From: a virus
IMG/VR virus record: IMGVR_UViG_3300032287_004317
Location: 1 to 45,335 of that record
Strand: one strand, 5' to 3'
DNA: 45,335 nucleotides
The position numbers and the translations under genes were made by a program. Of this stretch, positions 2,795 through 39,420 are shown piece by piece (position 1 is the first letter of the stretch; every line of letters starts with the position of its first letter). The notes under the pieces were generated by a model that saw only the letters and a list, made by a program, of their open reading frames with translations, was not told the origin of the DNA and did not search any database.

Positions 2795-3904
2795 ATGAAA
2801 TTAACAGATATTTTACGCCAAATAAACGAAGAGGAAGAAGACACACAACAAGGACCAAATAAAACAATATTTTATGATCCTGCTGTAAAACCTGTATCTC
2901 CTTCTACTATTCAAGATATAGTAAATGCTCTTACTGATCCCAATAATTACGATAAAACTTTAAAAACAAAGTTTTCTTTAAGAGATACTGGAGCTATGAA
3001 GGAACCTCTTCCTAAAAGTCCAAACCTAAATGGATTTTTAAAGTTAGCTAAAGAAGAATGGAATAAACTTTCTGAGGATGGAAAACTTAGAAAAATCAAA
3101 AATATTAAAAATAGAGTTTTTATCCAAACTATAGATAAAGAACATGTGCCTAACTATGCTGGAAAAAAAGCATGGGAAGAAAATATTGTAAACAATGAAG
3201 CTGTTCAAGATGCTTATAATGATTGGGAAAATGAAGGAAATGAGGGCAGCATAGAAAGTTATCTATCTTCATTATCTTTTGATGAATTAAGAAACACAGG
3301 TTTATTAGGAACTAAAGGAGTAAATTATTGGCCACAAAAACCATACACTAAAGATGATGAAATTCTTCTAAATCAAGCTACTATGCGTGAAGGAGAAAAT
3401 TTTATAGTAACAAATGATCGAGTTATTTTCCCATTAGTATCAAACAAACCATTTTTAGGCACCCAGGGTGAACAAGGTTTAAAAGATATAGTAAATTCTA
3501 TTTTAAAAAATGCTAAAGTTTCTGTTGAACAAGCAGATGTTGTAAGAGGAACTACTTCTTCTACTTCTAGTTCAACTGAACCAACTCTAACCAAACCAAA
3601 ACAAGAAATCCCAACCCCTCAACCTGCAGGCCCATCTGTTTTAACCCTTACACTAGACCCAGCTAAAATTAAAGGTAAAAAACCTGAATTGAATGCGATA
3701 GTTAAGTTGTTGAAAAATACATACGATAAAAATTTTGATTACGATCAAGAAAATAGTGTAATTAAAATTACAAATATTAAACCGGAACGAAGAGCTGATG
3801 TAAGAAACCAATTTTCTAAATTTTTAAAAGCATCAACTCCAATAAAAGAGGATTTTGATTTTGAAAGATACCAAATGCTTAGACGAGCAGGAATTATAAA
3901 GTAA
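2795..3904 (+). CDS. Putative virion-associated protein with CTS-like N-terminus
   Basis: The protein has 369 residues. The N-terminus MKLTDILRQINEEEE resembles the T4 capsid-targeting sequence: short, amphipathic, and followed by a (L/I)-x-E site (INE) that a gp21-type prohead protease could cut. A Ser/Thr/Pro-rich linker (about residues 250-280) precedes a C-terminal alpha/beta domain ending FERYQMLRRAGIIK. A similar tail (RWQLRAGILK) ends the protein at 9213. No enzymatic domain is recognised. It is followed after 2 nt by another protein with a similar N-terminus. The virion role is an inference. Confidence 0.75.
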   Translation: MKLTDILRQINEEEEDTQQGPNKTIFYDPAVKPVSPSTIQDIVNALTDPNNYDKTLKTKFSLRDTGAMKEPLPKSPNLNGFLKLAKEEWNKLSEDGKLRKIKNIKNRVFIQTIDKEHVPNYAGKKAWEENIVNNEAVQDAYNDWENEGNEGSIESYLSSLSFDELRNTGLLGTKGVNYWPQKPYTKDDEILLNQATMREGENFIVTNDRVIFPLVSNKPFLGTQGEQGLKDIVNSILKNAKVSVEQADVVRGTTSSTSSSTEPTLTKPKQEIPTPQPAGPSVLTLTLDPAKIKGKKPELNAIVKLLKNTYDKNFDYDQENSVIKITNIKPERRADVRNQFSKFLKASTPIKEDFDFERYQMLRRAGIIK

Positions 3905-3906
3905 CT

Positions 3907-4275
3907 ATGGACAATTTCGATTTAAAAAAATATTTAGCTGAAAATAAGCTAAACGAAGCAGAAGGAACAGATTTGTACTATGATGCTGGTCAAATGATTT
4001 CACAAGTTGGTTTATTTACTAGAGAAAATGCCGATAAGATGGATGCAGAAGGAGATGGAATAGGCCGTTGGTATGACACCCCAGAAGAAAGAGAAGAACT
4101 AATTAAAATATCCGAAGCATATCCTGCATATTTAGCTAAAGTAAAAGCAACATTTGATGAATTAATGAACGATCCAATGTATCGAGTTGCAGTTGGTGAT
4201 GTAGGTGGAAAATATAGAGATAGAGGACCAGGTGAAACTTTAGAAAAAGCATATTACAGATCAAAAAGATATTAA
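3907..4275 (+). CDS. Small putative virion-associated protein with CTS-like N-terminus
   Basis: A 122-residue protein begins MDNFDLKKYLAENKLNEAEG, a short lysine-containing helix with LAE at about residues 10-12, fitting the (L/I)-x-E rule of T4 gp21-type cleavage. The remainder is acidic and helical, with Trp-Tyr-Asp patches and a basic C-terminus (RSKRY). It lies 2 nt after its upstream neighbour and ends at a terminator, so the two share a transcript. No known family. It could be an internal head protein delivered with the DNA. Confidence 0.72.
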   Translation: MDNFDLKKYLAENKLNEAEGTDLYYDAGQMISQVGLFTRENADKMDAEGDGIGRWYDTPEEREELIKISEAYPAYLAKVKATFDELMNDPMYRVAVGDVGGKYRDRGPGETLEKAYYRSKRY

Positions 4276-4281
4276 ATAAAG

Positions 4282-4306
4282 AGCTTGCCTAGTGTAAGCT
4301 TTTTTT
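4282..4306 (+). terminator. Hairpin-T7 terminator fused to the next promoter
   Basis: AGCTT (4282-4286) pairs with AAGCT (4296-4300) across a 9-nt loop, followed by a run of T. The T run continues directly into GTATATT, and the stem carries the TTG that serves as the -33 element of the next promoter. Confidence 0.55.
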
Positions 4307-4313
4307 GTATATT
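4285..4313 (+). promoter_or_regulatory. Promoter module nested in a terminator
   Basis: TTG (4285-4287) sits in the terminator stem exactly 20 bp before TATATT (4308-4313). The spacer ends TTTTG rather than TTTCG. The clamp-loader start is 7 nt downstream, implying a very short leader. Confidence 0.6.
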
Positions 4314-4319
4314 ATGGTT

Positions 4320-5228
4320 ATGAAAGAAAATACGTTATATGTAGAACGTTTTCGCCCTACCGAACTAAAATACTATGTTGGTAACGAAAACATTAAAGAT
4401 ACAATTCAAAAATATCTTGATCAAGGTGACATTCAAAATTTTATATTTTATGGTCCACCTGGCTGTGGGAAAACTACATTAGCTAAAATCATAGTTAAAA
4501 ACCTAGATTGCGATTATCTTTATATAAACGCATCTGATGAAAACGGAATCGATACTATTAGAGAGAAAGTAAAGGGATTTGCTAGTGCTGCTTCTTGGAA
4601 AGGTATCAAAGTAGTAATTTTAGATGAAGCCGATTTCATTACAGTTCAAGGACAAGCCGCATTACGTAATGTAATTGAAACATTCTCTCGCTCAACACGC
4701 TTTATTTTAACTTGTAACTTTATAGAGCGAATCATTGATCCTCTACAATCCAGATGTCATACTCTTAAAATTGTACCTCCAACTAAAATGGATGTGTATA
4801 ACCATTTGACTTGGATTTTAACAGATCAACTTAATTTATCTTACAAGCAAGATGATATAAAAAATCTAATCGTTAAATACTATCCTGACATGCGTAAAAT
4901 GCTAAACGTTTTACAAATGTCTGTAAAAGATGATGCTATTGTACTTGATGAAACAGTTTTAACTTCAAACAACTACATTAAAGAGGTATTAAAAGAACTA
5001 GCAGGCAAGAAAAAATGGCTTACTATTCGACAAATTATAAATGATTCAAATACAAAGGACTTTGAAGAACTATATCGTAATTTATTTGAACATGCTTCAA
5101 AATATGCCCCAGGTAAAGAAGGATCTGTTGCAATTATATTAAACGAACATTTATATCAAGCTAATTTTAGAATAGATAAAGAAATTAATATAGCTTCTTG
5201 TATAGCCAAAATCATAGAAACAATATAA
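4320..5228 (+). CDS. 44: Sliding-clamp loader ATPase, T4 gp44-like
   Basis: This AAA+ ATPase loads the ring clamp onto primed DNA. In T4 four gp44 copies and one gp62 form the loader. Walker A GPPGCGKTT is at 45-53, Walker B LDEAD near 100-104, and the arginine-finger motif SRC near 144-146. The N-terminal VERFRPTEL is typical of RFC small subunits. The length, 302 residues, matches gp44 (about 319). The start at 4320 fits the GTTATG context; 4314 is an in-frame alternative. The small-subunit candidate lies at 6680, three genes away. Confidence 0.92.
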   Translation: MKENTLYVERFRPTELKYYVGNENIKDTIQKYLDQGDIQNFIFYGPPGCGKTTLAKIIVKNLDCDYLYINASDENGIDTIREKVKGFASAASWKGIKVVILDEADFITVQGQAALRNVIETFSRSTRFILTCNFIERIIDPLQSRCHTLKIVPPTKMDVYNHLTWILTDQLNLSYKQDDIKNLIVKYYPDMRKMLNVLQMSVKDDAIVLDETVLTSNNYIKEVLKELAGKKKWLTIRQIINDSNTKDFEELYRNLFEHASKYAPGKEGSVAIILNEHLYQANFRIDKEINIASCIAKIIETI

Positions 5229-5240
5229 TATTTATTATAA
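5227..5240 (+). promoter_or_regulatory. ATATTTAT motif, possible late promoter
   Basis: AATATTTATTATAA overlaps the end of the clamp-loader gene, about 15 nt before the ATG at 5243. It shares the ATATTTAT core with sites before other putative virion genes. Confidence 0.35.
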
Positions 5241-5242
5241 AA

Positions 5243-6229
5243 ATGATAAAACTTGTAAATCTTTTAAAAGAAATAACTGAGAATGGAAACTTTTTTCTTT
5301 ATCACAGAACTAAAATACCAACAACAACAAAAATCTTAACATCCCCCAATAAATCCCTTAACCCAAATGATGGAAGGGCTGGAGTTGGAACATATTTTGT
5401 ATATGGCAACCCAAAAGAAATTAGCTCAACAATGGACGTTTATGGAGGAGCTTCTTTAAGATATAGTATTCCCGAATCATCACTTTCTAATTTTTTAGTT
5501 TTTGATAAAAATTTACAATCCAGATCATTGGATCAACAACTTACCCCATTAAAATCAGAAATAGGTGAAGATAGATTTAATGAAGTTATTAATTCATATG
5601 ATAAAGGGACTCTAAATCAATTAGAATTTATAGAAGAATTAATCGAACAAGGTATTAATCTTGCAGATTATTTTGATGGAGCATTATATGGAGCTAAATC
5701 TCAATCAACTGCGGGATCTAGTTTGGGATTTGGTACTGCTAAAACCGCTGGAACTAGTAGAACTGCAGTAGTATATAATCAAAATCTATTAACTTTTCAA
5801 GGAGTATCTACAGATGGAGTTAATTATAAAATACCTTCTGAATCAACTAATAAAATTAAATCACCTGAAATGGCATTAACCCAAGGAGAAATCCCAGATG
5901 GGTATACTATTAAAAAAACAACAGTTGATCTCAAGGGAAAAAACATTTCTACCCTCCCAAATGATTTAGAAATAATTGGAAGTTTAGATTTAAGAAATCC
6001 TTCTATTGAAAACTTACCATCTAATTTAAAAGTTAAAAATACTTTATATATTTTACCTTCTCAAATCACTTCATTTTTATCAACTAAACCTCAAATAAAA
6101 AGATTATGGGTTGATTCAATTACCTCTGATATTATTAAAACCTTAAACCAGGTAGGACTTACATATGTATCTCAACCATGGGATAGACCTGAAGAAAATT
6201 CTTATAGTGGAACATTTAAAGTAAAATAA
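5243..6229 (+). CDS. Putative virion protein with ADP-ribosyltransferase-like region
   Basis: The protein has 328 residues from the chosen ATG; an upstream frame extension overlaps the clamp-loader gene and lacks a good start context. The N-terminus MIKLVNLLKEITEN resembles a capsid-targeting sequence with ITE as a cleavage site. Residues 18-70 (LYHRT, then GRAGVGTYFVYG, then YGG with SLRYSIP) recall the strand pattern of ADP-ribosyltransferase folds, but I cannot place a catalytic Glu. The C-terminal 110 residues contain leucine-rich-repeat-like spacing (ISTLPNDL, IENLPSNL). If it is an injected ART it would parallel T4 Alt; this is tentative. Confidence 0.75.
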   Translation: MIKLVNLLKEITENGNFFLYHRTKIPTTTKILTSPNKSLNPNDGRAGVGTYFVYGNPKEISSTMDVYGGASLRYSIPESSLSNFLVFDKNLQSRSLDQQLTPLKSEIGEDRFNEVINSYDKGTLNQLEFIEELIEQGINLADYFDGALYGAKSQSTAGSSLGFGTAKTAGTSRTAVVYNQNLLTFQGVSTDGVNYKIPSESTNKIKSPEMALTQGEIPDGYTIKKTTVDLKGKNISTLPNDLEIIGSLDLRNPSIENLPSNLKVKNTLYILPSQITSFLSTKPQIKRLWVDSITSDIIKTLNQVGLTYVSQPWDRPEENSYSGTFKVK

Positions 6230-6242
6230 AAAAATAAAAGTT

Positions 6243-6443
6243 ATGAAATATTTTGTAAAATACACTCTTTCGTGGGTATCTCAAAATTTAGCCGTACCTT
6301 TCTGGACAGTAGGACATATACATTTAATGACATCTGTTTATGCTGATATACACGAATTGATCATGTCATTGGGAATGAACCTGATAGTTGCAGCAGGATT
6401 CATCCATGACTTTATAGAATATAGAAACAATAAAAACAAATAA
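6243..6443 (+). CDS. Small membrane-associated protein
   Basis: A 66-residue protein with two hydrophobic stretches, one near residues 10-32 and a clearer one near 38-56 (MSLGMNLIVAAGFIHDFIE), and a basic Asn/Lys tail. It starts in the AAAGTTATG context, 13 nt after its neighbour. No family is recognised. It is probably an inner-membrane peptide. Confidence 0.6.
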   Translation: MKYFVKYTLSWVSQNLAVPFWTVGHIHLMTSVYADIHELIMSLGMNLIVAAGFIHDFIEYRNNKNK

Positions 6444-6444
6444 A

Positions 6445-6687
6445 ATGGAAAAACCACAAATGAACATTGACTTTACAAACACAACATCCGTTGAAGGATT
6501 TGATGGAGGTAAATTATTCGGACAAGCAGTTATTATCCGTAAAATCTCAAAATTTGTAGTAGGATCAGATGAAGATATGCTCATGCCTATCCCAGTATTT
6601 TATGATTTGGAATCAAAGAAAATCTTACCAGATTCACTTCCAAAAGAACTACGTGACGAATATAAAGATATTTCTTTAGATGTCTAA
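6445..6687 (+). CDS. Unknown protein preceding gp62-like gene
   Basis: An 80-residue protein with beta-rich character (KLFGQAVIIRKISKFVVG). It begins 1 nt after the upstream stop and overlaps the next gene by 8 nt, so it is cotranslated with the clamp-loader small-subunit candidate. No motif or family is recognised. Confidence 0.72.
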   Translation: MEKPQMNIDFTNTTSVEGFDGGKLFGQAVIIRKISKFVVGSDEDMLMPIPVFYDLESKKILPDSLPKELRDEYKDISLDV

Positions 6688-7108
6688 AAAACAGATAAAA
6701 GATATTTGGGGGTGGTTAAACGAAATCACCCTCTATAAAACACCGATTGAAAATATCTCTGAGGAGTCGTGGGACAAATGGAACTCCTATATAATACATC
6801 GATATGTATCTATGAATATAAATTATATTGAAGTAGCAAATTATATTCAAACTATACCTTACGATAGTAAACAACAAATATATTTAATTTATAGAGAGAT
6901 GATTCCAAAAGCTAAAACGTTCTTGAAATATATCAAATCAAGAACAAAGAAACAGCCTACTACATTGGTAGAGTATGTAGCAAAATATTTTGAATGCAGT
7001 TTAGGTGAAGCAGAAGAGTACATTGATATTTTACGTGAACATGGGGTTCGTAGAGTCCTTTACGATATGGGATTAGATGAAAAAGAACAAAAAAAGTTAT
7101 TAAAATAG
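6680..7108 (+). CDS. 62: Clamp-loader small subunit candidate, T4 gp62-like
   Basis: The protein has 142 residues. The order of features resembles phage clamp-loader small subunits: an N-terminal WGWLNEIT segment, HRYVSMN..IEVANYIQ near residues 40-58, IPKAKTFLKYIKS near 75-88, and a helical C-terminus with an AEEYIDIL segment. It has no ATPase motif, as expected of gp62, which holds the ring of gp44 subunits in shape. It is somewhat shorter than T4 gp62 (187). The gp44-like gene 1.5 kb upstream supports the assignment. The call rests on remembered sequence pattern, not an alignment. Confidence 0.68.
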   Translation: MSKKQIKDIWGWLNEITLYKTPIENISEESWDKWNSYIIHRYVSMNINYIEVANYIQTIPYDSKQQIYLIYREMIPKAKTFLKYIKSRTKKQPTTLVEYVAKYFECSLGEAEEYIDILREHGVRRVLYDMGLDEKEQKKLLK

Positions 7109-7109
7109 T

Positions 7110-7346
7110 ATGGATAAAGAATTTAGATTAATAGATAAAACAGACTCAATAGTTGATTCAATTATTGACCAATTTGTACAAAGAGCTATAATGGGGAAGG
7201 AAAAATATGGGTGTGGATTAGACCGCACAGATCTTAACCTCCTTGATTATATAAACCACGCTTTAGAAGAACATATGGATGCGATTCTATATTTACAAAA
7301 AGCTAAAAAAATCCTTGAAGAAGAATATAAAAAGACAGAAAAATAA
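7110..7346 (+). CDS. Small helical protein, possible MazG-like fold
   Basis: A 78-residue protein. The pattern KYGCGLDRTDLNLLDYINHALEEHMDAILYLQKA (written here only as a pattern of YG, DRTD, H-x3-EE and D) matches small phage proteins whose EE..D helix recalls the metal-binding helix of all-alpha NTP pyrophosphatases. The second EXXD half is not clear, so activity is uncertain. It starts 1 nt after the gp62-like gene. Confidence 0.65.
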   Translation: MDKEFRLIDKTDSIVDSIIDQFVQRAIMGKEKYGCGLDRTDLNLLDYINHALEEHMDAILYLQKAKKILEEEYKKTEK

Positions 7347-7358
7347 CATATTTATAAG
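7347..7358 (+). promoter_or_regulatory. ATATTTAT motif, possible late promoter
   Basis: CATATTTATAAG lies 22 nt upstream of the ATG of the GIY-YIG gene, overlapping the preceding stop. Its core is the same as at 8089 and 29842. Confidence 0.35.
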
Positions 7359-7369
7359 AAATATTAAAT

Positions 7370-8089
7370 ATGGTGCTGATTTATTTTTTAACTAAAAACA
7401 ATAACCCCTTTTATGTAGGAAAAACTACTTTACATTTTTGTAAAAAACGAGAATATAAACATAAAGAAAAGTATGGTTTTGATATTCAAATGGAGATCCT
7501 AGAGGAAGTAGAATATCAAGATTGGAAATTTTGGGAGTGTTATTGGATAGAACAATTTAAACAATGGGGATTTAACTTAAAAAACAAAAATAATGGTGGT
7601 GGAGGTTGTATAAAAATGCCTGAAATTTCTAAAGAATTAATAGGGAATAAAAATAGAAAACCAAAACCATTTAATTTTAAAGGAACTAAAGGTATTAAAT
7701 ATTCTGAAGAAACCAAACAAAAAATGAGAAAACCTAAACCAGAAGGGTTTGGAGAAAAAATTTCATCTAATATTGAACGGAGTAAAAAAATATCTCAAAG
7801 TGCTTTAGGTAATACAAGAAAAAAAGGAACAACAGAATCTCAACAAGCTAAACTTAATAAAAGTAAAGCTGCTTTAGGTAAGGAAAAATCATTATCCCAT
7901 AAACAGAATATGTCTTCTCCGATACTACAAATAGATTTAAACGGTAATCTTGTAAAAAAATGGAATCAAATACAACAACTTCTTCAAAGTAAAATCATTA
8001 GTACTGGGGTATTATATAAGTGCCTTAAAGGAATAAAACCACATGCTAATGGTTTTATATGGAAATATGTAGAGACAAAAGATATATAA
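7370..8089 (+). CDS. GIY-YIG homing endonuclease with NUMOD modules
   Basis: The protein has 239 residues. The N-terminal nuclease has the paired motifs IYFL (4-7) and FYVG (14-17), a downstream KKREYKHK basic helix and a Glu near residue 55-62 (WECYWIEQF) in the position of the catalytic Glu. The middle has NUMOD3-like repeats (SEETKQKMRKPK), and the C-terminus has a NUMOD1-like DNA-binding module (ILQIDLNGNLVKKW...FIWKYV). Such enzymes cut intron- or gene-lacking alleles and spread by repair. It is free-standing between the gp62-like operon and a virion-like gene. A second enzyme of this type is at 34110. Confidence 0.88.
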   Translation: MVLIYFLTKNNNPFYVGKTTLHFCKKREYKHKEKYGFDIQMEILEEVEYQDWKFWECYWIEQFKQWGFNLKNKNNGGGGCIKMPEISKELIGNKNRKPKPFNFKGTKGIKYSEETKQKMRKPKPEGFGEKISSNIERSKKISQSALGNTRKKGTTESQQAKLNKSKAALGKEKSLSHKQNMSSPILQIDLNGNLVKKWNQIQQLLQSKIISTGVLYKCLKGIKPHANGFIWKYVETKDI

Positions 8090-8102
8090 TATTTATAATA
8101 AA
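8088..8102 (+). promoter_or_regulatory. ATATTTAT motif, possible late promoter
   Basis: AATATTTATAATAAA lies 23 nt before the ATG at 8112 and resembles the T4 late -10 element TATAAATA in composition. The downstream gene looks virion-associated. Confidence 0.4.
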
Positions 8103-8111
8103 ATACTTAAA

Positions 8112-9200
8112 ATGATACAAGAACAACTTAGAATGCAAATGTTAGCAGGTGTAATTACAGAAGGTGAATATAAAGCAAAATTAGAAGAAGCATCATATTC
8201 TATCCCACCTAAAGCAGAAAAAATCTCAGATAAAGTAATTAAATGGTATGAAAAACACCCTAATGATAAAATGAAAGAACTTCTTAATTCTGTTGAAAAG
8301 AATTTAGAAAAGATGCTTTCTAAAACCTCAGGTAAGGATGCTATTAAAGTTGAGGAATTTGAGAAAATGGTAAAAACCAAATACCCAAAACCCTTTGAAG
8401 ACCCAAATTATTCAGTATTTAAAAAATCCCAAGTTAAAGAATCCCTTAACGAACACTACGTAGCAGGTGTAATCACAGAAGGGCAATATAAAGCAAAATT
8501 AAAAGAAAACAAAGATAAATCTTCCTTAAATGAAGGAATGATTGGAGGAATTGTAGGAGTTGGAGCAATTACTCAAATCCCACCTCGTGCTAAAACAGAT
8601 TACGAAACAGCATTCGAACATTTTTTAGGTGAGCGTTATGAAACTAAATTCGAAAACAGAGAACAAGATCCTTACACAATGGAAGAAGATCTAGAAGAAG
8701 CTAAGATGGGAAACATTGACCCAGCAATCAAAAACAACCCAGCTTTTAACAAACTAGTGAACTACCTTAAAACCCATCCAGATGAAGCTGAAGAGTTAAA
8801 AGATAAAGAAGATGAAATTGAAGATGTTCTTCAAAATGTAAATGAAGCTTTTAAAAAAGATGGTAAATTCTACACTCAAGATACTTACGGAAATACAAAA
8901 GAAGTAGATTTCAAAACTTACTTAAAAGATAAAGGTATTAGTGTGGCTATGTCAGCTGCTGCTCTTGGTTTTCTTGGAGCATTAATGGCTGGAGCTTTAG
9001 GTACAAACACACCAAATGAAATTTTAGATGCTGTTTTAGTTGCTTCTGGAATTGGTGCTGCTGCTGGAGCTACTTTGGGTGAAGGTGAAGAACCACTTAA
9101 AGATGTTTCTGATGAAAAAAAAGCTGAATATTTAGTTTACATGACTGGAATGAGCTATGAAGATGCTATTACTGCAATCAGACGAGGAGCTAAAGTTTAA
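8112..9200 (+). CDS. Putative virion protein with SHOCT-like repeats and glycine-rich hydrophobic hairpin
   Basis: The protein has 362 residues. Residues 3-24 (QLRMQMLAG-VITEGEY-KAKL) and 117-135 (YVAGVITEGQYKAKL) are two copies of a SHOCT-like motif, a short helical module often found at protein termini. Residues 275-320 are Ala/Gly-rich and hydrophobic (AMSAAALGFLGALMAGALG, then ASGIGAAAGATLG), forming a possible membrane hairpin. Between them is a charged helical region. The copies suggest tandem duplication. I infer a head or ejection protein that may touch the membrane; no known family is named. Confidence 0.78.
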   Translation: MIQEQLRMQMLAGVITEGEYKAKLEEASYSIPPKAEKISDKVIKWYEKHPNDKMKELLNSVEKNLEKMLSKTSGKDAIKVEEFEKMVKTKYPKPFEDPNYSVFKKSQVKESLNEHYVAGVITEGQYKAKLKENKDKSSLNEGMIGGIVGVGAITQIPPRAKTDYETAFEHFLGERYETKFENREQDPYTMEEDLEEAKMGNIDPAIKNNPAFNKLVNYLKTHPDEAEELKDKEDEIEDVLQNVNEAFKKDGKFYTQDTYGNTKEVDFKTYLKDKGISVAMSAAALGFLGALMAGALGTNTPNEILDAVLVASGIGAAAGATLGEGEEPLKDVSDEKKAEYLVYMTGMSYEDAITAIRRGAKV

Positions 9201-9212
9201 AATAAATAAAAT

Positions 9213-9446
9213 ATGAACCCAAGAGACATAATTAAAATAGATGTTCCTCTATTTATTCGTTTACTCGAATATGCTAAAGAGGATGCAAAAGACGATATGG
9301 ATTTACACCGTATTGCAGAAAATGCAATTGATTTGTCTCGTTTAGGTGGAACTTTAGGGATGATCGATTACGAAAATATAGTTGGTCCTCAAGAAAATAT
9401 TGAAGAAATCAAACGTTGGCAACTTAGAGCCGGCATATTAAAATGA
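9213..9446 (+). CDS. Small protein with LRAGILK tail
   Basis: A 77-residue acidic helical protein. The C-terminus IKRWQLRAGILK matches the end of the 369-residue protein at 2795 (RYQMLRRAGIIK) and the first half of the SHOCT-like motif. It overlaps the next gene by 4 nt (ATGA). No other feature is seen. Confidence 0.72.
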   Translation: MNPRDIIKIDVPLFIRLLEYAKEDAKDDMDLHRIAENAIDLSRLGGTLGMIDYENIVGPQENIEEIKRWQLRAGILK

Positions 9447-9946
9447 AAGATTCAAGACTACAAAAACTAATCAGAGAAGGTTTACTTGATATGTTCCGTA
9501 AACCAAAGGAAGAACCCCAAGAAAAAAGAATTCTATTTGTGCATCAAATTCCAATAGATGCTACAGCTGAAGATTTTAGATATTTAAAATCAAATGATAC
9601 AGAAAAACTAAAAGCTTTTGAAGATGCTTGGAAAAGAGGAAATGATACAACTAGAGACAGTTTAAGAACTCTTTTAAATACTGAACCTTATTCTCAAAAG
9701 AAAGATTTTGTTGATAAATACGATGCTAAATTAAAACAATATCAAAATGATCTTAAAACAGGTAAAGCTAAATCTTCAATTTCATCAAAATCTTCTGTTG
9801 GAGGAGTTGGGGATTCAAGTACTGGTTCTAGTTCATCTAGAATAGCTGGAATGAGTGGATTATTTGAAGAACAACTTAGAATGCAACTATTAGCTGGTTT
9901 AATTACCGAAACTGAATATAGAGAAAAATTAAACAAGAACTATTAA
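9443..9946 (+). CDS. Putative virion-associated protein with C-terminal SHOCT-like motif
   Basis: The protein has 167 residues. The N-terminus MKDSRLQKLIREGLLDMF is a short amphipathic helix. A Ser/Gly-rich linker near residues 110-140 leads to the C-terminal FEEQLRMQLLAGLITETEY, nearly identical in plan to the start of the protein at 8112. The gene ends just before a structured RNA and terminator. It may be a head-internal or scaffold-type protein; no homologue is recognised. Confidence 0.74.
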   Translation: MKDSRLQKLIREGLLDMFRKPKEEPQEKRILFVHQIPIDATAEDFRYLKSNDTEKLKAFEDAWKRGNDTTRDSLRTLLNTEPYSQKKDFVDKYDAKLKQYQNDLKTGKAKSSISSKSSVGGVGDSSTGSSSSRIAGMSGLFEEQLRMQLLAGLITETEYREKLNKNY

Positions 9947-9949
9947 GAT

Positions 9950-10053
9950 ACGGCTTAGGACCGTTTGCTGGTTACAGCAAGAGATTATCTTATTGTCGCT
10001 ATCAAGGTAATTTCAAAAATTTAAAGAAAGCTTGCCTTTGGCAGGCTTTTTTT
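9950..10053 (+). ncRNA. Candidate structured RNA: three hairpins plus terminator
   Basis: Four stems stand in series: ACGG/CCGT (9950-9953, 9961-9964), TTGCTG/CAGCAA with loop GTTA (9965-9980), an 11-bp stem GAGATTATCTT/AAGGTAATTTC with two wobbles (9981-9991, 10004-10014), and the terminator hairpin at 10029-10047. No coding frame is evident. It could be a small trans-acting RNA or the leader or end of a transcript. It starts just after the stop codon of the upstream gene, so a 3'-UTR-derived RNA is also possible. Confidence 0.55.
10029..10053 (+). terminator. Strong intrinsic terminator fused to the next promoter
   Basis: AGCTTGCC (10029-10036) pairs with GGCAGGCT (10040-10047) around a TTT loop, followed by T7. 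The T run leads straight into GTATATT. Confidence 0.8.
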
Positions 10054-10060
10054 GTATATT
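10032..10060 (+). promoter_or_regulatory. Promoter module nested in a terminator
   Basis: TTG (10032-10034) in the ascending terminator stem is exactly 20 bp before TATATT (10055-10060). The start codon is at 10067. The same arrangement and similar stem sequence are seen at 4285. Confidence 0.6.
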
Positions 10061-10066
10061 CCAATA

Positions 10067-11005
10067 ATGAAAAAAAAGTTACCTTCTATATTAAAGGAAA
10101 TAAAAACTAAGGTTTTACCCGAAATTGATTATGCAACTCAAAAATCTATTTCATATTCCCAATTTTCCATGTTCAATGAGTGTCCTAAAAAATGGTCACT
10201 CCAATACAAAGAAGGACATAAACAATTTACCTCCTCCATCTACACAGTTTTTGGAACAGCATTACATGAAACACTCCAGCATTACCTAACTGTATTTTAC
10301 GAACAAAGCGGAGCAGAAGCAGATCGAATCAACACCTCTGAAATGCTAGAGGAAAAACTTAGAGAAGAATACAAAAAACAATACAAAGCAAACAACAACC
10401 AACATTTTGTAACCCCAGACGAGTTAAGAGAATTTTACGAAGATGGAGTAGAAATCATAAGAGAAATAGCTAAAGATAGAGGAAAATACTTTGGTAAAAG
10501 GGGATGGCATTTAGTTGGATGTGAAATTCCGCTTATACTATCTCCTGACCCAAAATTACCAAACATAATGTTTCAAGGTTTTTTAGATTTAGTTTTATAT
10601 CATGAACCAACAAACAAAATTAAAATCATAGACATTAAAACAAGTAGACAAGGTTGGAACAAAAAACAAAAATCAGATGAAAATAAACAATTTCAACTTA
10701 TAGCCTACAAAAAATATTTTTCCGAGCTATACAACATGCCTTTAGAAAACATTGATGTTGAATTCATGATTGTAAAACGTAAAATATTTGAAAGCGAACA
10801 ATTTGTTATAAAAAGAGTACAATGGTTTAAACCGGCGGCAGGAAAAGTAAAATTAAATAGAGTAACAAAATCAATAGAAGAATTTATAGAAAATGCATTT
10901 GATTGGAATGGTTTTAAAAAAGTTGAACACCAACCAAAATTAAATGAAAATTGCAAGTACTGTCCTTTCTATAAAACTCATTTATGTTCTGCTACATATG
11001 TATAA
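10067..11005 (+). CDS. PD-(D/E)XK nuclease with Cas4/AddB-like Cys set
   Basis: The protein has 312 residues. It resembles RecB-family nucleases of the Cas4/AddB type. SYSQFSMFNECPKKW near 29-43 gives the first Cys (39). GFLDLVL near 171-177 and IIDIKTS near 186-192 supply the metal-binding Asp, Asp and Lys. QFQLIAYKKY near 211-220 is the QhxxY motif. The C-terminal CKYCPFYKTHLC near 296-307 supplies three further Cys, a spacing typical of a 4Fe-4S cluster clasping the domain. It likely cuts single-stranded or branched DNA in recombination or end processing. The start at 10067 follows the promoter; an extension to 10052 runs into the promoter. Confidence 0.85.
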   Translation: MKKKLPSILKEIKTKVLPEIDYATQKSISYSQFSMFNECPKKWSLQYKEGHKQFTSSIYTVFGTALHETLQHYLTVFYEQSGAEADRINTSEMLEEKLREEYKKQYKANNNQHFVTPDELREFYEDGVEIIREIAKDRGKYFGKRGWHLVGCEIPLILSPDPKLPNIMFQGFLDLVLYHEPTNKIKIIDIKTSRQGWNKKQKSDENKQFQLIAYKKYFSELYNMPLENIDVEFMIVKRKIFESEQFVIKRVQWFKPAAGKVKLNRVTKSIEEFIENAFDWNGFKKVEHQPKLNENCKYCPFYKTHLCSATYV

Positions 11006-11020
11006 TATATAATTTAAAGT

Positions 11021-11716
11021 ATGTTTGATTTAAGAAAATTTTTATCTGAAAACCAATTAACCTTAAAATCCCAAACGATTAACGAGGTTTCTATTCAACA
11101 GTTACAAACTGACTTTGTTGATACTGGAAAAATTTCTCAAAAAGATTTTGATGAAATACTAAAAGCTTCTAAAAATGATAGCGCTTTTGCTACTTGGCTA
11201 GTTGCTAAAGTTGCAGGCTCTAAAAAATCCCCCGCAATTATCAAACCAGAAGACATATACAAATATGGAGAATATTTAGATATCTTTAAACGCAGAAAAA
11301 AAGAATACCCTTTATCAGATATAAACCAGATCAAAACACCTCAACAACTCCAAGACTTTATTAAAACATCAGTTGATTTTTCTTCCCAAGAAGAACAAGA
11401 CCCATCAGCTCAAAAAGGTGTTTCTAAAACAGAAAAATTTCAAGACCTTAAAATTGGAGACTATAACGGATTTTCTGTTTACATGATTCCTAAAGGTAGA
11501 AAAGATTTATACCCAACTTCATGTGAACTAGGCTCTGGAACAGAATGGTGTACAGCTACAGGAAAAACCTCAGACTTCTTTGACCAATATATTGAAGACG
11601 GCCCGTTATTTATCTTTATAGATAATTCAGATCCTAAAAACAAATATCAAGTAAGTTTTGAAGAAGAACAATTTATGGATAAATACGATAACCCTATTTA
11701 CGCTACTAATTATTAA
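11021..11716 (+). CDS. Putative virion protein with CTS-like N-terminus and WCTA motif
   Basis: The protein has 231 residues. MFDLRKFLSEN at the N-terminus matches the CTS-like group (LSE as cleavage site). The second half has TEWCTATGKT near residues 176-185, then GPLFIFID, then KYQVSFEEEQFMDKYDNPI. This WCT..KYQ..F(M)D order occurs in proteins of environmental T4-like phages that I recall as uncharacterised. The preceding TACATATGTATAAT region may hold its promoter. Function is unknown; packaging in the head is inferred from the N-terminus. Confidence 0.75.
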   Translation: MFDLRKFLSENQLTLKSQTINEVSIQQLQTDFVDTGKISQKDFDEILKASKNDSAFATWLVAKVAGSKKSPAIIKPEDIYKYGEYLDIFKRRKKEYPLSDINQIKTPQQLQDFIKTSVDFSSQEEQDPSAQKGVSKTEKFQDLKIGDYNGFSVYMIPKGRKDLYPTSCELGSGTEWCTATGKTSDFFDQYIEDGPLFIFIDNSDPKNKYQVSFEEEQFMDKYDNPIYATNY

Positions 11717-12996: not shown

Positions 12997-14436
12997 ATGA
13001 AAGAAAAGTTTAAACACTTGCCTCAAAACGAGCGAAAAAAAATCCTATTAATTTGCGACGACATTAGAGTACACTCGGGTGTAGCAACAGTAGCACGTGA
13101 ATTAGTTTTAAACACAGCCCACCATTTCAATTGGGTAAACGTAGCAGGAGCAATCAATCACCCCGAACAAGGAAAACGTTTTGATCTGTCTCAAGACACA
13201 AACACAAACACCGGTTTAACAGATGCTTCTATTTTCTTGTACCCAACAAATGGATATGGTGATGCTGATTTGATTCGTCATTTAATTGAATTGGAAAATC
13301 CAGATGCAATAATGCTAATAACGGATCCAAGATACTTTGAGTGGTTGTTTCAAATTGAAAACGAGATTAGAAAACACATGCCAATCATTTATTTGAACAT
13401 CTGGGATGATTATCCGGCACCGTTGTACAACAAATCATTTTACGAATCGTGTGACGCGTTACTTGCAATTTCAAAACAAACAAAATTAATTAACGAGCTA
13501 GTTTTAGGTGAAAAGGCAAAAAGTAAAGTAATAGAGTATGTTCCACACGGTTTAAATGAAGATCATTTTTATCCAATTGAGGATGAAAATGAACTTAAGG
13601 AACTAGAGGCAGTTAAAAACCAATTATTTGGTAATCAAGAAAAAGATTTTATAGTATTTTTTAATTCAAGAAATATTAGACGTAAACAAATTCCAGATAC
13701 AATGCTTGCGTTTAGGTATTTTTTAGACACGTTACCAAAAGAAAAAGCAGAAAAATGTGCTTTAGTTTTACATACCGAAATAGTAAGTGAACATGGAACA
13801 GATTTAGATGCGGTAAGAAATATTTTATTTCAAGATTATCCAAATGCAATATATTTTTCAACAAATAAATTAGATCACAAACAATTAAATTATTTGTATA
13901 ATATTGCAGATGCTCAAATTTTGTTAACTTCAAACGAAGGATGGGGCTTATCTTTAACAGAGGCAATTTTAGCAGGAACTCCAATTATAGCAAACGTAAC
14001 TGGTGGAATGCAAGATCAAATGCGATTTGAAGATGAATTTGGAAATTGGTTTACACCAACTCCAAAATTACCTTCAAACCACACAGGTAAATTGAAAAAC
14101 CATGGTTGTTGGGCGTTTCCGGTTTATCCAACAAATCGTTCAATTCAAGGTTCACCTAAAACACCTTATATTTTTGATGATAGATGCACAGCAGAGGATG
14201 CAGCCGCTCGTATATCCGAAGTGTATGCAATGGATAGAAAAATGAGAAAAGAACTTGGTAAAACAGGAAGACATTGGGCTTTAAATGAAGCAGGATTAAC
14301 TGGAGAGTATATGGGAGTTAGAGCAATTAACGCGATAGATCAATTATTTAACACGTGGACTCCACGCTCAAAATATGAGTTAATCAACTGTAATGAAGTA
14401 GAAACAGACACAATTAGACACGAATTATTATATTAA
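12997..14436 (+). CDS. GT-B glycosyltransferase (GT4-like)
   Basis: The protein has 479 residues. N-terminal ILLICDDIRVHSGVATVARELV is the nucleotide-free Rossmann half of a GT-B enzyme. The C-terminal donor-binding half carries SNEGWGLSLTEAILAGTPIIA near 308-330, the E-x7-E signature of the GT4 family. An insert of about 40 residues around a Trp/Pro-rich stretch follows. It opens the glycan island and is followed after 4 nt by a second GT-B enzyme. It probably transfers a sugar from an NDP donor in the cytoplasm; the acceptor is unknown. Confidence 0.88.
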   Translation: MKEKFKHLPQNERKKILLICDDIRVHSGVATVARELVLNTAHHFNWVNVAGAINHPEQGKRFDLSQDTNTNTGLTDASIFLYPTNGYGDADLIRHLIELENPDAIMLITDPRYFEWLFQIENEIRKHMPIIYLNIWDDYPAPLYNKSFYESCDALLAISKQTKLINELVLGEKAKSKVIEYVPHGLNEDHFYPIEDENELKELEAVKNQLFGNQEKDFIVFFNSRNIRRKQIPDTMLAFRYFLDTLPKEKAEKCALVLHTEIVSEHGTDLDAVRNILFQDYPNAIYFSTNKLDHKQLNYLYNIADAQILLTSNEGWGLSLTEAILAGTPIIANVTGGMQDQMRFEDEFGNWFTPTPKLPSNHTGKLKNHGCWAFPVYPTNRSIQGSPKTPYIFDDRCTAEDAAARISEVYAMDRKMRKELGKTGRHWALNEAGLTGEYMGVRAINAIDQLFNTWTPRSKYELINCNEVETDTIRHELLY

Positions 14437-14440
14437 AATT

Positions 14441-15733
14441 ATGAGCAAACCAGTTTTTGTAATTAGTTGCCCAATTGACACTTATAGTGGCTATGGAGCA
14501 CGTTCACGCGATATCGTTAAAGCAATTATTGAATTAGATAAATACGATGTTAAAGTTTTACCTCAACGATGGGGTGCAACACCTAAAGGATTCATTAAAG
14601 ATAATCCGGAATGGTCATTTTTAACCCCTCATTTATTAAACAATCCTCAATTACCAACTCAACCAGAAATTTGGATGCAAATTACAGTTCCAAATGAATT
14701 CCAACCAATAGGAAAATATAACATTGGATGTACAGCTGGAATTGAAACTACAATTGCACCTGCAGAGTGGGTTGAAGGATGTTCTAGAATGAACTTAATT
14801 TTAGGTTCCTCAAAACATACAATTGATGTGTTAAAAAATAGTAAATTTGAAAAACGCGATCAACAAACAAATCAACCAGTAGGAATTATTGAGTGGAAAG
14901 GAGATAGTGAGGTTATATTTGAGGGAGCAGATGTTGAAACATATAAAGTAGCTAAATCAAAATTTGATTTATCTTCAATTGAAGAAGATTTTGCTTATTT
15001 GTTTGTAGGACATTGGATGCAAGGTGCTTTAGGTGAGGATAGAAAAAATGTAGGATTACTTGTAAAAGCATTCTTTGAAACATTTAAAAACAAGAAAAAA
15101 CAACCAGCATTAATTTTAAAAACATCTCAAGTAGGATCCTCTTATATGGATAGAGATGAAATTTTAAAGAAAATTAAAGCAATTAAAGAATCTTGTAAAT
15201 CTAAAAACTTACCTAACGTATATTTGTTACATGGTGAATTTACAAACGAGGAAATGAATGAGATTTACAATCACCCTAAAGTTAAAGCAATGATTAATTT
15301 AACTAAAGGAGAAGGATTTGGTCGCCCATTACTTGAATTTTCTTTAGTTAATAAACCAATCATTACAACAAATTGGAGTGGTCATATTGATTATTTAAAT
15401 CCTGAATTTACAACGTTGTTACCTGGTACTTTAACAAATGTTCACCCAAGTGCCGCAAACAATATGTTAATGCAGGAAGCACAGTGGTTTTCTGTTGATC
15501 ACGGGCACGTAGGACATTATTTAAAAGATGTGTTTGAAAACTATAAAGGATATGCTGATAATGCAAAACGTCAAGGTTTCCAATCAAGATCTAAATTCTC
15601 GTTTGAAGCAATGAAAGAAAAATTGGATACTGTATTTACTGAACGTATACCTGAATTCCCAAAACAGGTACAATTACAGTTACCTAAATTGAAAAAAATT
15701 GAATTACCTAAACTTAAAAAAGTAGAAGCATAA
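14441..15733 (+). CDS. GT-B glycosyltransferase (GT4-like)
   Basis: The protein has 430 residues. PIDTYSGYGARSRDIVKAI near residues 8-26 forms the glycine-rich N-terminal loop, and LTKGEGFGRPLLEFSLVNKP near 288-307 is the E-x7-E donor-site motif of GT4 enzymes. The last 25 residues are a Leu/Pro/Lys repeat (LQLPKLKKIELPKLKK), perhaps a membrane- or partner-binding tail. It overlaps the next frame at TAATG. It is distinct enough from the previous enzyme to act on a different acceptor. Confidence 0.87.
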   Translation: MSKPVFVISCPIDTYSGYGARSRDIVKAIIELDKYDVKVLPQRWGATPKGFIKDNPEWSFLTPHLLNNPQLPTQPEIWMQITVPNEFQPIGKYNIGCTAGIETTIAPAEWVEGCSRMNLILGSSKHTIDVLKNSKFEKRDQQTNQPVGIIEWKGDSEVIFEGADVETYKVAKSKFDLSSIEEDFAYLFVGHWMQGALGEDRKNVGLLVKAFFETFKNKKKQPALILKTSQVGSSYMDRDEILKKIKAIKESCKSKNLPNVYLLHGEFTNEEMNEIYNHPKVKAMINLTKGEGFGRPLLEFSLVNKPIITTNWSGHIDYLNPEFTTLLPGTLTNVHPSAANNMLMQEAQWFSVDHGHVGHYLKDVFENYKGYADNAKRQGFQSRSKFSFEAMKEKLDTVFTERIPEFPKQVQLQLPKLKKIELPKLKKVEA

Positions 15734-16197
15734 TGCAACACGAAGAAATAATTGACTGCCCTAAATCAGGAGGAGATTTATGTTACAAAACTCAAGTAAC
15801 ACCTGATATTTCAAACTACATGAGTTTGAGCTGTGGTTTTTGGACTAACAGTCTAATGAAAGAAGGTGAAGAATTCTATGAAGCTCAAATGGAAACTTTA
15901 CCTGAATTGTATAAAGATTTAGCTTGGGTAGATGAAAAAACAGGTTTAACTTGGGTTCCAAACACTATTAACCAACCTGGTTTAGGAATGGTATTTGCAA
16001 ATGGCTCAAATGCCCAAAATTGGGGATGGGCAGCTGTTAAATCAATTGAAATCCCTGAAGATCAAAGAAAAAACCATCCAATTCCAGGTAAACCAGGAGA
16101 GTTTATGGAGCATAAAATGGATATGGCTAATATGAAAATGTTTAACGAGCGTGATTATATTGAAGCTTTAGATTACATTGGAATGTTTCAAAAATAA
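15733..16197 (+). CDS. Unknown Cys/Trp-rich protein in glycan island
   Basis: The protein has 154 residues. The N-terminus has DCPKSGGDLCYKTQ, then SCGFWTNSLMKEG and GLTWVPNTINQPGLGMVF. Cys residues near 9, 16 and 34 could hold a metal, but the spacing fits no standard finger. I recall similar proteins beside glycosyltransferases in T4-like phages, without function. It starts on the stop codon of the upstream transferase and ends before a promoter. Confidence 0.75.
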   Translation: MQHEEIIDCPKSGGDLCYKTQVTPDISNYMSLSCGFWTNSLMKEGEEFYEAQMETLPELYKDLAWVDEKTGLTWVPNTINQPGLGMVFANGSNAQNWGWAAVKSIEIPEDQRKNHPIPGKPGEFMEHKMDMANMKMFNERDYIEALDYIGMFQK

Positions 16198-16198
16198 T

Positions 16199-16227
16199 TA
16201 GGTTTTATAAAAAAAGTTTTGTATAAT
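16199..16227 (+). promoter_or_regulatory. Promoter module variant, TAG-N20-TATAAT
   Basis: TAG (16199-16201) lies exactly 20 bp before TATAAT (16222-16227), with TTTTG in place of TTTCG. The ATG at 16235 follows after 7 nt. It is the only module inside the glycan island and would split it into two transcripts. Confidence 0.6.
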
Positions 16228-16234
16228 CAAGTAT

Positions 16235-16858
16235 ATGAAAATTACGTACGCAATCACAGTCTGTAACGAATTCATTGAAATTCAACGTTTAGTGGGATTT
16301 TTGCTTCAACACAAACGTTTACAAGACAACATAGTGATCCTATATGATGAAGCAAATGGTGACCCTGAAATCGAGAATTTCCTCCGTTCACATTCTGTGA
16401 ATGGAGAATTTTCTTGGCACAAAGCAAAATTCAATAAGCATTTTGCTGATTGGAAAAACAAGCTAACCAGTTTATGTAATGGAGATTATATTTTCCAAAT
16501 TGATGCTGATGAAATACCTGCAGAAGATTTAATTAGACATTTACCTGAAATCATAGAATTAAATCCTGAAATGGATATTTATTTAGTTCCTAGAGTAAAT
16601 ACTGTTGAAGGTTTAACTGCAACCCATGTTGCTAAATGGGGTTGGAAAGTAAACGAAGAAGGTTGGGTAAATTGGCCTGATTTTCAATGGCGTATTTGGA
16701 AAAATAAACCTGAAATTAAATGGGTAAATAAAGTACATGAGCGTTTAGATGGCTTTAAAACATACACAGCATTACCAGATGCAGAGTATTTTGCTTTATA
16801 CCACCCAAAAACAATAGAAAAACAAGAAAAACAAAACAACTTATACGATACCATATGA
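16235..16858 (+). CDS. GT2 glycosyltransferase (GT-A fold)
   Basis: The protein has 207 residues. ITYAITVCNEFIEIQRLV is the first strand and loop of the GT-A fold. FQIDADEIPAEDLI near 87-100 supplies the DxD metal/donor motif. The middle resembles WaaE-type transferases (WRIWKNKPEIKWVNKVHERL). It overlaps the epimerase gene by 4 nt. It is short for a GT2 (usually 250-300), so it may be a minimal catalytic domain. Confidence 0.85.
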   Translation: MKITYAITVCNEFIEIQRLVGFLLQHKRLQDNIVILYDEANGDPEIENFLRSHSVNGEFSWHKAKFNKHFADWKNKLTSLCNGDYIFQIDADEIPAEDLIRHLPEIIELNPEMDIYLVPRVNTVEGLTATHVAKWGWKVNEEGWVNWPDFQWRIWKNKPEIKWVNKVHERLDGFKTYTALPDAEYFALYHPKTIEKQEKQNNLYDTI

Positions 16859-17892
16859 AAACAGCATTAGTATTAGGTGGAGGTGGTTTTATAGGAGGTC
16901 ATCTTGCAAAACGATTAAAAGAAGAAGGATTTTGGGTTCGTATTGTAGATATTAAAGAAAAACATGAATACTGGAACCATGATGATATTTGCCATGAATA
17001 TATTTGTGGTGACTTACGAGACCCAAAATTAGTTTCAGCAGTAATGTATTCCCCAACCCAACATTCAGAATCAGATAAAGTTCACTCATTTGATGAAGTT
17101 TATCAATTAGCTGCTGATATGGGAGGAGCAGGTTATATTTTTACAGGTGAAAATGATGCTAATGTAATGCACAACTCAGCTTTAGTTAATTTAAATGTTG
17201 TATATGAAGCAGCTAAAAAATCAATTAAAAGAATATTTTACAGCTCTTCAGCTTGTATGTACCCAGAACATAACCAATTAGATCCTGATAATCCAAACTG
17301 TGAAGAATCATCTGCCTACCCTGCTAACCCAGATTCAGAGTATGGATGGGAAAAATTATTCAGTGAGCGTTTATTTTTAGCATTTAATCGTAATTATGGT
17401 TTAGATGTTAGAGTAGCTCGTTTCCATAATATTTTTGGACCTATGGGAACTTGGGCAGGAGGTAAAGAAAAAGCACCTGCCGCTATGTGTAGAAAAGTAG
17501 CTGGTGCAGAAAAAAATGAATCTATTGAAGTATGGGGAGATGGGCAACAAACACGTTCATTTCTTTATATTGATGAATGTTTAGAAGCAGTATTACGTTT
17601 TATGCGTCAAGATGAATTTTCTGGGCCTGTTAATATAGGATCTGAAGAAATGGTTACAATTAATCAACTTGCTCAAATGACCCTTGATATTGCAAATAAA
17701 GGTTTGTATATTAAAAATATTGAAGGAGAAGAATTTAAACAAAAATATGGCTTTAAATGCCCTGTAGGAGTTAGAGGAAGAAACTCAGACAATAAACTTT
17801 TTAAAGAAAAGATGGAATGGGAACCAACCCAACCACTTTATGAGGGAATGAAATTAACATTTGAATGGATTAATAAACAAGTAAACCAATGA
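16855..17892 (+). CDS. gme: GDP-mannose 3,5-epimerase
   Basis: The protein has 345 residues and converts GDP-D-mannose to GDP-L-galactose (and GDP-L-gulose). It is an NAD-dependent extended SDR. The Gly-rich loop GGGGFIGGHL is at 8-17. LAADMGGAGYI, SSACMYPE (catalytic Cys near 133) and YGWEK (Tyr/Lys near 163-167) follow. Then come RFHNIFGPMGTWAGGKEKAPA and VRGRNSDN, all hallmark segments of plant and bacterial GMEs. It overlaps both neighbours by 4 nt. GDP-mannose must come from the host. Two GT11 enzymes in the island use GDP-L-sugars and are plausible consumers. Confidence 0.9.
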   Translation: MKTALVLGGGGFIGGHLAKRLKEEGFWVRIVDIKEKHEYWNHDDICHEYICGDLRDPKLVSAVMYSPTQHSESDKVHSFDEVYQLAADMGGAGYIFTGENDANVMHNSALVNLNVVYEAAKKSIKRIFYSSSACMYPEHNQLDPDNPNCEESSAYPANPDSEYGWEKLFSERLFLAFNRNYGLDVRVARFHNIFGPMGTWAGGKEKAPAAMCRKVAGAEKNESIEVWGDGQQTRSFLYIDECLEAVLRFMRQDEFSGPVNIGSEEMVTINQLAQMTLDIANKGLYIKNIEGEEFKQKYGFKCPVGVRGRNSDNKLFKEKMEWEPTQPLYEGMKLTFEWINKQVNQ

Positions 17893-18686
17893 TTACTCAT
17901 AAAAGTATAGGATATAGTGGAAGGTTAGGTAACCAAATGTTCCAATATGCTGTTTTAAAGGCATTGTCTTTAAAAACAGGATATGAAATGTTTTTACCTA
18001 ACAATACTTCTATTAAACCTGATGGATGTTATGATATGACTAACAATAAATGGATAGAGTATAAACTTGATTTATTTGATTGTTTTAATCTTTCATGTGA
18101 TGTATCTTCAAACTCCCTTATAAACACATATCAAGAAAAAGGATTTACTTTTGAATCTGAAGTATTTAACATATCCGATGATACAGCTATAGAAGGTTAT
18201 TTCCAATCATATAAATATTTTGACGAGTTTAAACAAGATATTATAAATGATTTTACTTTCAAATCTGATATTTTAAATAAATGCAAAAATTTTATTCTTC
18301 AATTTATCAACCCTTTAGCCATTCATGTTAGAAGAGGAGATTACGTTAACCATCCAGGACTTTGGAACATCACTCCAGAATATATTCAAGAAGCAATAAA
18401 CCAATTTTCAGACGATGAATGCACTTTTATTATTTTTTCGGATGATATAGAATGGTGTAAACAGATTTTTCCTGAATGGGCTATATTTGTAGAAGGGAAT
18501 AATCAATTTGAGGATTTATGTTTAATGTCTTTATGTAACCATAATATAATTTCAAATAGTTCATATAGTTGGTGGGGAGCTTACCTTAATCAAAACCCAA
18601 ATAAAAAAGTTATAGCCCCAAAAAACTGGTTTATTCCATCTAAACCATTGAACGATTTATACCCTAAAACATGGACAATAATATAA
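17889..18686 (+). CDS. GT11 alpha-1,2-fucosyltransferase-like enzyme
   Basis: The protein has 265 residues. GRLGNQMFQYAVLKALSLKTG near residues 10-30, HVRRGDYVNHPG near 146-157 (the basic GDP-binding motif), and SNSSYSWWGAYL near 222-233 are the three conserved GT11 motifs in order. Known members transfer L-fucose from GDP-L-fucose to galactose. The adjacent GDP-mannose epimerase suggests the donor may be GDP-L-galactose, an inference. It overlaps the next gene by 16 nt. Confidence 0.9.
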   Translation: MITHKSIGYSGRLGNQMFQYAVLKALSLKTGYEMFLPNNTSIKPDGCYDMTNNKWIEYKLDLFDCFNLSCDVSSNSLINTYQEKGFTFESEVFNISDDTAIEGYFQSYKYFDEFKQDIINDFTFKSDILNKCKNFILQFINPLAIHVRRGDYVNHPGLWNITPEYIQEAINQFSDDECTFIIFSDDIEWCKQIFPEWAIFVEGNNQFEDLCLMSLCNHNIISNSSYSWWGAYLNQNPNKKVIAPKNWFIPSKPLNDLYPKTWTII

Positions 18687-20400: not shown

Positions 20401-20418
20401 ATAAATAAATAATAAATT

Positions 20419-21620: not shown

Positions 21621-21621
21621 T

Positions 21622-39310: not shown

Positions 39311-39393
39311 AGTCAGGTGGTGTAATGAAACACGCTCCTAGTTTAATATGGTGTATACCAGGTGTAGTGCAGGTTCGAGTCCTGCCCTGACTA
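39311..39393 (+). tRNA. tRNA-like element with an expanded anticodon loop
   Basis: Acceptor AGTCAGG/CCTGACT (7 bp, perfect), D stem GTGT/ACAC, T stem GCAGG/CCTGC with loop TTCGAGT, and a 4-nt variable region. The anticodon stem CTCCT/AGGTG has one mismatch and closes a 20-nt loop instead of 7 nt. No standard anticodon can be read. The loop holds GGTGTATACC, which can fold on itself. It may be a tRNA pseudogene, a tRNA with an insert, or a tRNA mimic. Confidence 0.6.
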
Positions 39394-39420
39394 CAAAACG
39401 CTTCATAACCGTTTTCTTTT

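Follow-up and report, generated by a model that had tools for sequence, protein, structure and literature searches.

Putative capsid-targeting tags shared by unrelated proteins in a T4-like relative of Flavobacterium phage immuto

Tagged proteins of the window

The DNA analyzed here, IMG/VR record IMGVR_UViG_3300032287_004317 (45,335 nucleotides; "the window"), is a 45.3-kb viral fragment in which several otherwise unrelated predicted proteins begin with a short segment ending in (L/I)xE, here called a tag; the remainder of such a protein is called its body. The window is a piece of a T4-like phage infecting Bacteroidota and akin to Flavobacterium phage immuto, which supplies the nearest match to its GroEL among phage isolates (59%) and has the same gene order, GroES-GroEL ... 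PD-(D/E)XK nuclease - glycosyltransferases. A preliminary description of the window had listed four such N-termini, at 2795 (MKLTDILRQINEEEE), 3907 (MDNFDLKKYLAENKLNEAEG), 5243 (MIKLVNLLKEITENGN) and 11021 (MFDLRKFLSENQLTLKSQTINEV). All four were found on the + strand, with Asn directly after Glu in three. At 3907 the motif was as described, but the first two residues of the protein had been omitted; at 5243 the start is an ATG within an open reading frame (ORF) whose alternative start is TTG 5198. The four members are real, but the set was incomplete, as the 8112 and 9443 proteins are also tagged and a related motif occurs at the C-terminus of the proteins at 2795 and 9213 (Table 1).

Table 1. 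Tags and related features of the window (aa, amino acids)
Feature	Position	Strand	Basis
369-aa protein, class B-like tag MKLTDILRQINE (2795-2830), C-terminus FERYQMLRRAGIIK	2795..3904	+	sequence, 41 orthologs
C-terminal motif YQMLRRAGIIK of the 2795 protein, scaffold-C-terminus-like	3866..3901	+	sequence, orthologs
Class A tag MDNFDLKKYLAENKLNE of 122-aa protein (3907-4275), LxE at aa 12 and 17	3907..3957	+	tag recurs on different bodies among relatives
Class B tag MIKLVNLLKEITE of 328-aa protein (5243-6229)	5243..5281	+	hydrophobic 4, 7, 8 and E at 10, as in T4 IPIII
Class C tag MIQEQLRMQMLAGVITEGEYKAKLEE of 362-aa protein (8112-9200)	8112..8189	+	class on 93 non-redundant bodies
Internal second class C-like copy (LNEHYVAGVITEGQYKAKLKE) in the 8112 protein	8448..8510	+	in relatives, the following domain begins directly after an N-terminal tag
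77-aa protein without N-terminal tag, C-terminus IKRWQLRAGILK	9213..9446	+	sequence
Class B tag MKDSRLQKLIRE of 167-aa protein (9443-9946)	9443..9478	+	sequence
C-terminal class C motif FEEQLRMQLLAGLITETEYREKLNKNY of the 9443 protein	9860..9943	+	homologs in L238, L267
PD-(D/E)XK nuclease, tag-like start (MKKKLPSILKEI), ambiguous	10067..11005	+	start missing in distant orthologs
Class A tag MFDLRKFLSENQLTLKSQTINE of 231-aa protein (11021-11716)	11021..11086	+	hydrophobic 4, 7, 8, E 10; second [LI]xE at 20-22

Tag classes and the scaffold C-terminus

The tags fall into three classes: class A, (N)FDLKKYLAENKLNE; class B, MIKLxxLLKE or MKKSQLRxIIKE; and class C, EQLRMQMLAGIITEGQYKAKLNE, with the core RMQxLAGIITE. 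The shared motif seen at the outset was correct, but the large class C had been overlooked. Tags of class C, and the longer ones of class A, extend to 22-26 aa. Class C conservation is ~4 bits in the core and 1.9 at the final Glu, ~0.2-0.5 directly after it and mostly <0.5 beyond. Class C matches (n = 273) start at aa 1-8 in 201 cases and at aa 9-20 in 25, with 24 C-terminal and 23 internal; the loci were gathered partly by a class C DNA pattern, which affects the number of matches and not their position within the protein. Several of the internal cases, which are preceded by Met, probably reflect wrong ORF starts. The C-terminal cases are mostly the scaffold protein encoded between the protease and gp23, which ended in RMQKLAGII(K) or a close variant in nine of nine genomes; the related C-terminal motif in the window is RAGI(I/L)K. 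These sequences lead us to infer that class C reproduces the scaffold's docking end.

Among 41 orthologs of the 2795 protein, [LI]xE at aa 8-16 was kept in all and a C-terminal AGII(K) or close variant in 39; the tag ended in ILRE/IIRE in 34 and in RQINE in 6, so that INE, as in the window, is the less common form. The ortholog in L198 has the C-terminus LRMQKLAGIITE, which is class C at the C-terminus. Homologs of the 9443 protein in L238 and L267 extend past their class C motif into the 3907 body, and the 8112 protein has two class C copies with one domain after each. Both arrangements suggest that internal tags mark fused cargo that the phage protease could separate.

Exchange of tags between bodies

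Class A tags were found on 18 non-redundant bodies (for class C, see Table 1). In 13 non-redundant pairs, homologous bodies carried tags of different classes, and the homology mostly started at (L/I)xE or a few residues from it. Clear junctions (marked by a slash) were ITEGQYKAKLNE/ELDLPSEVDQ (LNE, class C), AENRLLKE/DLDLSSEVDQ (class A) and KVLNE/DLDIASELN, and the junction LNE/EKIPFF was identical in G013 (class B) and L202 (class C). The body of the 5243 protein (FFLYHRT...) was 84-85% identical in L368 but followed a different N-terminus, MSFDYRAYLKNNPLLEE, and the next, unrelated L368 gene had that same start. The pattern is thus shared by otherwise unrelated proteins, as had been proposed, and the tags are modular and interchangeable between bodies. 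Tag likeness was 69% within a contig versus 59% between contigs (0 of 1000 permutations as extreme), as expected if tags follow a phage's own assembly machinery; shared descent could also contribute.

Prohead protease and capsid proteins of relatives

The gp21-like protease that the preliminary description had proposed to look for was present in every long relative searched. PF03420 (S77, gp21-type) matched in immuto (E 9e-35) and in 10 out of 17 records from relatives; every one that reaches 129 kb has it. The window record, a 45-kb fragment, gave no match, nor did the control genomes. In alignments with T4 gp21, the His of GEL(D/N)HP, the Ser of SSRG and the aligned Asp were conserved in nine of nine proteases. 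The immuto genome encodes gp20, the S77 protease and gp23, and the long relatives likewise encode gp23 and gp20 beside their gp21-type protease; T4 also has all three in one genome. Like T4 gp21, the relatives' proteases mostly have an xxE site containing a hydrophobic residue near position 20 and a second site near the C-terminus. The major capsid proteins of L005-L084 themselves start in a tag-like way (in 68 of 77, a hydrophobic-x-E whose Glu is residue 8 or 9); at the equivalent of the T4 gp23 cut they read (V/I)xE, which suggests that the protease of this group also accepts Val at P3.

Enrichment of the motif near the protease

A head module was defined to extend from the protease 22 kb in the upstream and 4 kb in the downstream direction; these limits were fixed after tags had been seen in immuto and G001. 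In nine genomes, 29-61% of module proteins had [LI]xE ending at aa 8-16; within those proteins, internal positions gave 10-18% (p 0.006 to 3e-9), and N-termini outside the modules gave 9-16%. The last residue of the motif was Glu with 3.3-fold enrichment and Asp with none (0.87); Lys and Arg were also enriched, reflecting the basic helix. A strict pattern, hydrophobic-x-x-hydrophobic-hydrophobic-x-E, agreed with the enrichment in eight of nine genomes, and the positions of E peaked at residues 10-14. This strict tag was not found on the immuto early-gene enzymes DNA polymerase, RecA, helicase and ribonucleotide reductase, and crAss001, a Bacteroidota phage with a different head, had no excess of the motif. 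In the window, 7 of 21 ORFs within 1-12.8 kb had [LI]xE ending at aa 8-16, versus 13% of internal windows (p = 0.014), and 1 of 47 ORFs beyond 12.8 kb had it. The window is weak evidence by itself; the related genomes make it strong. That the tag family is real is beyond reasonable doubt.

Comparison with T4 and other phages

T4 IPI, IPII, IPIII and Alt, which are processed by gp21, have capsid targeting sequences like the tags described here: N-terminal propeptides of 10-19 residues ending in (L/I)xE, on variable and unrelated bodies. Mutants of T4 IPIII placed targeting at residues 4 and 7 and processing at residues 8 and 10 (PMC9026906). The 5243 and 11021 proteins match all of these positions exactly, and the 3907 protein has the same hydrophobic/E spacing shifted by two. 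The strict pattern fits T4 IPII and IPIII (MKTYQEFIAE), Alt (MELITELFDE) and the gp23 cut site (FGSFLTE), while IPI meets the looser (L/I)xE rule alone, at residue 19. Since the strict pattern matched 11 of 143 T4 ORFs scanned, it is a filter and no proof. T4 has about four tagged proteins. Each genome here encodes about 15-20 candidates, and it further departs from T4 in having three classes of tag, one of them matching the scaffold C-terminus, in the exchange of tags and in tandem or internal copies.

In phiKZ and SPN3US, the propeptides of many head and ejected proteins are cut by gp175/gp245 after a short motif ending in E, often at several sites in one propeptide (PMC9026906). Those phages belong to another virus group and use another cleavage motif, while here short tags are repeated on unrelated proteins. 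Pseudomonas phage PA5oct has a homolog of the 11021 body, EST35_0205 (BLASTP 28%, hhalign probability 98), which is annotated as a structural protein by electrospray ionization tandem mass spectrometry (ESI-MS/MS) and begins with MKLFEVFTLYE (LxE at aa 11). It has 482 aa and comes from a different jumbo phage family, and its record reports no cleavage.

The capsid-targeting mechanism is known; here it would take a new, much enlarged form. No report of such tags in Bacteroidota phages was found in the open-access literature, and a class C search of isolate phages returned only immuto, at a weak E-value of 3.

Proposed mechanism and alternatives

The short N-termini are very probably T4-type capsid targeting sequences that are trimmed by the protease. 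During assembly of the prohead core, the amphipathic helix or the scaffold-like RMQxLAGII would bind the core or inner shell, so that the protein would be enclosed in the head. The gp21-like S77 protease would then cut after (L/I)xE and leave the mature protein free inside, from where it would probably exit together with the DNA. Cleavage after (L/I)xE is predicted from the drop in class C conservation after the Glu and from the body junctions at or near LxE. The preliminary description had expected tags of about ten residues cut after INE, LAE, ITE and LSE; the tags do end in (L/I)xE, but they are often longer and often end at a second LxE (KLNE, TINE). The main mature ends probably lie elsewhere than at LAE and LSE, the predicted cut often being at the distal LxE (LNE, INE). 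Asn after Glu was considered as a mark of the cut and set aside, since the Asn of class A sits within the tag. The tags are independent cassettes traded among unrelated proteins.

The proteins had also been proposed to be packaged and injected. Packaging with trimming is well supported by their sequences, but injection goes a step further, as some tagged proteins may serve purely as components of the core or head; for most tagged bodies, host delivery is favored, with modest confidence. The tags might instead be docking peptides of scaffold or core proteins, with the tagged proteins building the head and then being degraded or expelled with no host delivery. This would fit the identity of the class C motif with the scaffold C-terminus, the presence of tags on the portal-to-gp23 neighbors and the degradation of T4 gp22, gp67 and gp68 by gp21 (PMC9026906). 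However, the tagged bodies are numerous, unrelated and swapped at the same slot between phages; they include kinase/zeta-toxin-like and nucleotidyltransferase/HAD-like proteins, which look like variable cargo, unlike conserved core parts; and the homolog of the 11021 body remains in PA5oct virions. A purely structural role is therefore considered unlikely.

It is far less probable that the N-termini are generic protein-interaction or SHOCT-like oligomerization helices with no tie to capsid or protease. Amphipathic helices are a common element, and SHOCT (PF09851) matched class C weakly in two window proteins, at 14.0-14.1 bits versus a curated cut-off of 27. Such helices would not account for a mostly terminal class C (226 of 273 starting at aa 1-20, besides the C-terminal group), for E being favored and D not, for homology beginning at or near LxE or for tags clustering beside the S77 protease, and a genome collection yielded a single contig with the class C DNA pattern, itself encoding several tagged proteins. 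Chance occurrence of a short (L/I)xE in the Lys/Leu/Ile/Glu-rich starts of AT-rich genes is scarcely credible: the internal background is appreciable and the window as a whole has no excess (8 of 68), but the excess is two- to five-fold in the nine head modules and absent in crAss001, and long, near-identical tags occur on unrelated bodies. Module enrichment, body junctions and the spread of tags over non-redundant bodies already contradict it.

Several points weigh against capsid targeting or narrow the evidence for it. The window record lacks head genes as well as the protease, and its 2795 protein lacks the strict IPIII spacing, which most orthologs fit shifted by one. In several of the 13 cross-class pairs the alignment extends partly or wholly across the tag and tells little of where tag and body join. 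The nine genomes are one lineage, so that p-values across them are not independent; seven were held out, the other two (immuto and G001) being those in which the module limits were first seen, and G010 and G009 gave weak results, either in the comparison with the remainder of the genome or with the strict motif. The motif is imperfectly specific, also fitting imm157, a protein of the baseplate side, with its orthologs, and the PD-(D/E)XK nuclease. Literature searches turned up no virion proteomics on this group of phages; a paper on Baltic Flavobacterium phages does not cover immuto and has no immuto virion proteomics.

A tentative, broader reading of capsid targeting is a general head-loading system of this Bacteroidota phage lineage: exchangeable tags, one of them copying the scaffold C-terminus, would open the head to almost any gene, internal tags would split fused cargo as the head matures, and the tags together would list a large, fast-changing set of injected proteins. 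Proteins delivered by the virion act ahead of phage gene expression and are hard to spot by sequence. As an address label, the tag would give a readable list of the proteins that a phage probably brings to the next cell, would allow candidate lists from many uncultured phages and suggests that the scaffold C-terminus is a docking element.

Identity of the tagged bodies

Among relatives, recognizable tagged bodies were zeta-toxin/AAA kinases (PF06414, E 4e-12), with weak HAD/5'-nucleotidase and nucleotidyltransferase matches for others. Pfam, PHROGs and NCBIfam returned nothing convincing for the tagged window proteins, and the 2795 body had no match in phage isolates. The C-terminal part of the 5243 protein (aa 217-279) matched a solved leucine-rich-repeat protein, 8z5u (E 8e-7). 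An Alt-like ADP-ribosyltransferase was considered for 5243 because of LYHRT...GTYF but gained no statistical support, with no Pfam match and PARP3 at only E 0.59. AlphaFold models of 5243 (predicted local distance difference test score, pLDDT, 46) and 11021 (pLDDT 63.6) were too poor for their folds to be used, and the 11021 model matched no solved structure.

Genome context

The PD-(D/E)XK nuclease is up to 97% identical in environmental relatives. The single genome-collection contig with the class C DNA pattern, L369, belongs to a Fluviicola metagenome-assembled genome (MAG); it is probably a phage contig binned into that genome, which hints at the host. GroES (557-862) and GroEL (855-2498) are phage-encoded, adjoin the cargo genes and are kept in relatives. 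An extended series of glycosyltransferase, epimerase, methyltransferase and radical SAM genes (12997-26207), partly present in immuto and relatives, forms a phage-encoded glycan pathway. A 761-aa protein (29863-32148) has a signal-peptide-like start and a weak fn3 match, with a similar protein in G001; its C-terminal stretch, which no model matched, resembles a type IX secretion sorting signal. ARAGORN reported a tRNA with a two-base anticodon, probably degenerate, at 39311-39394.

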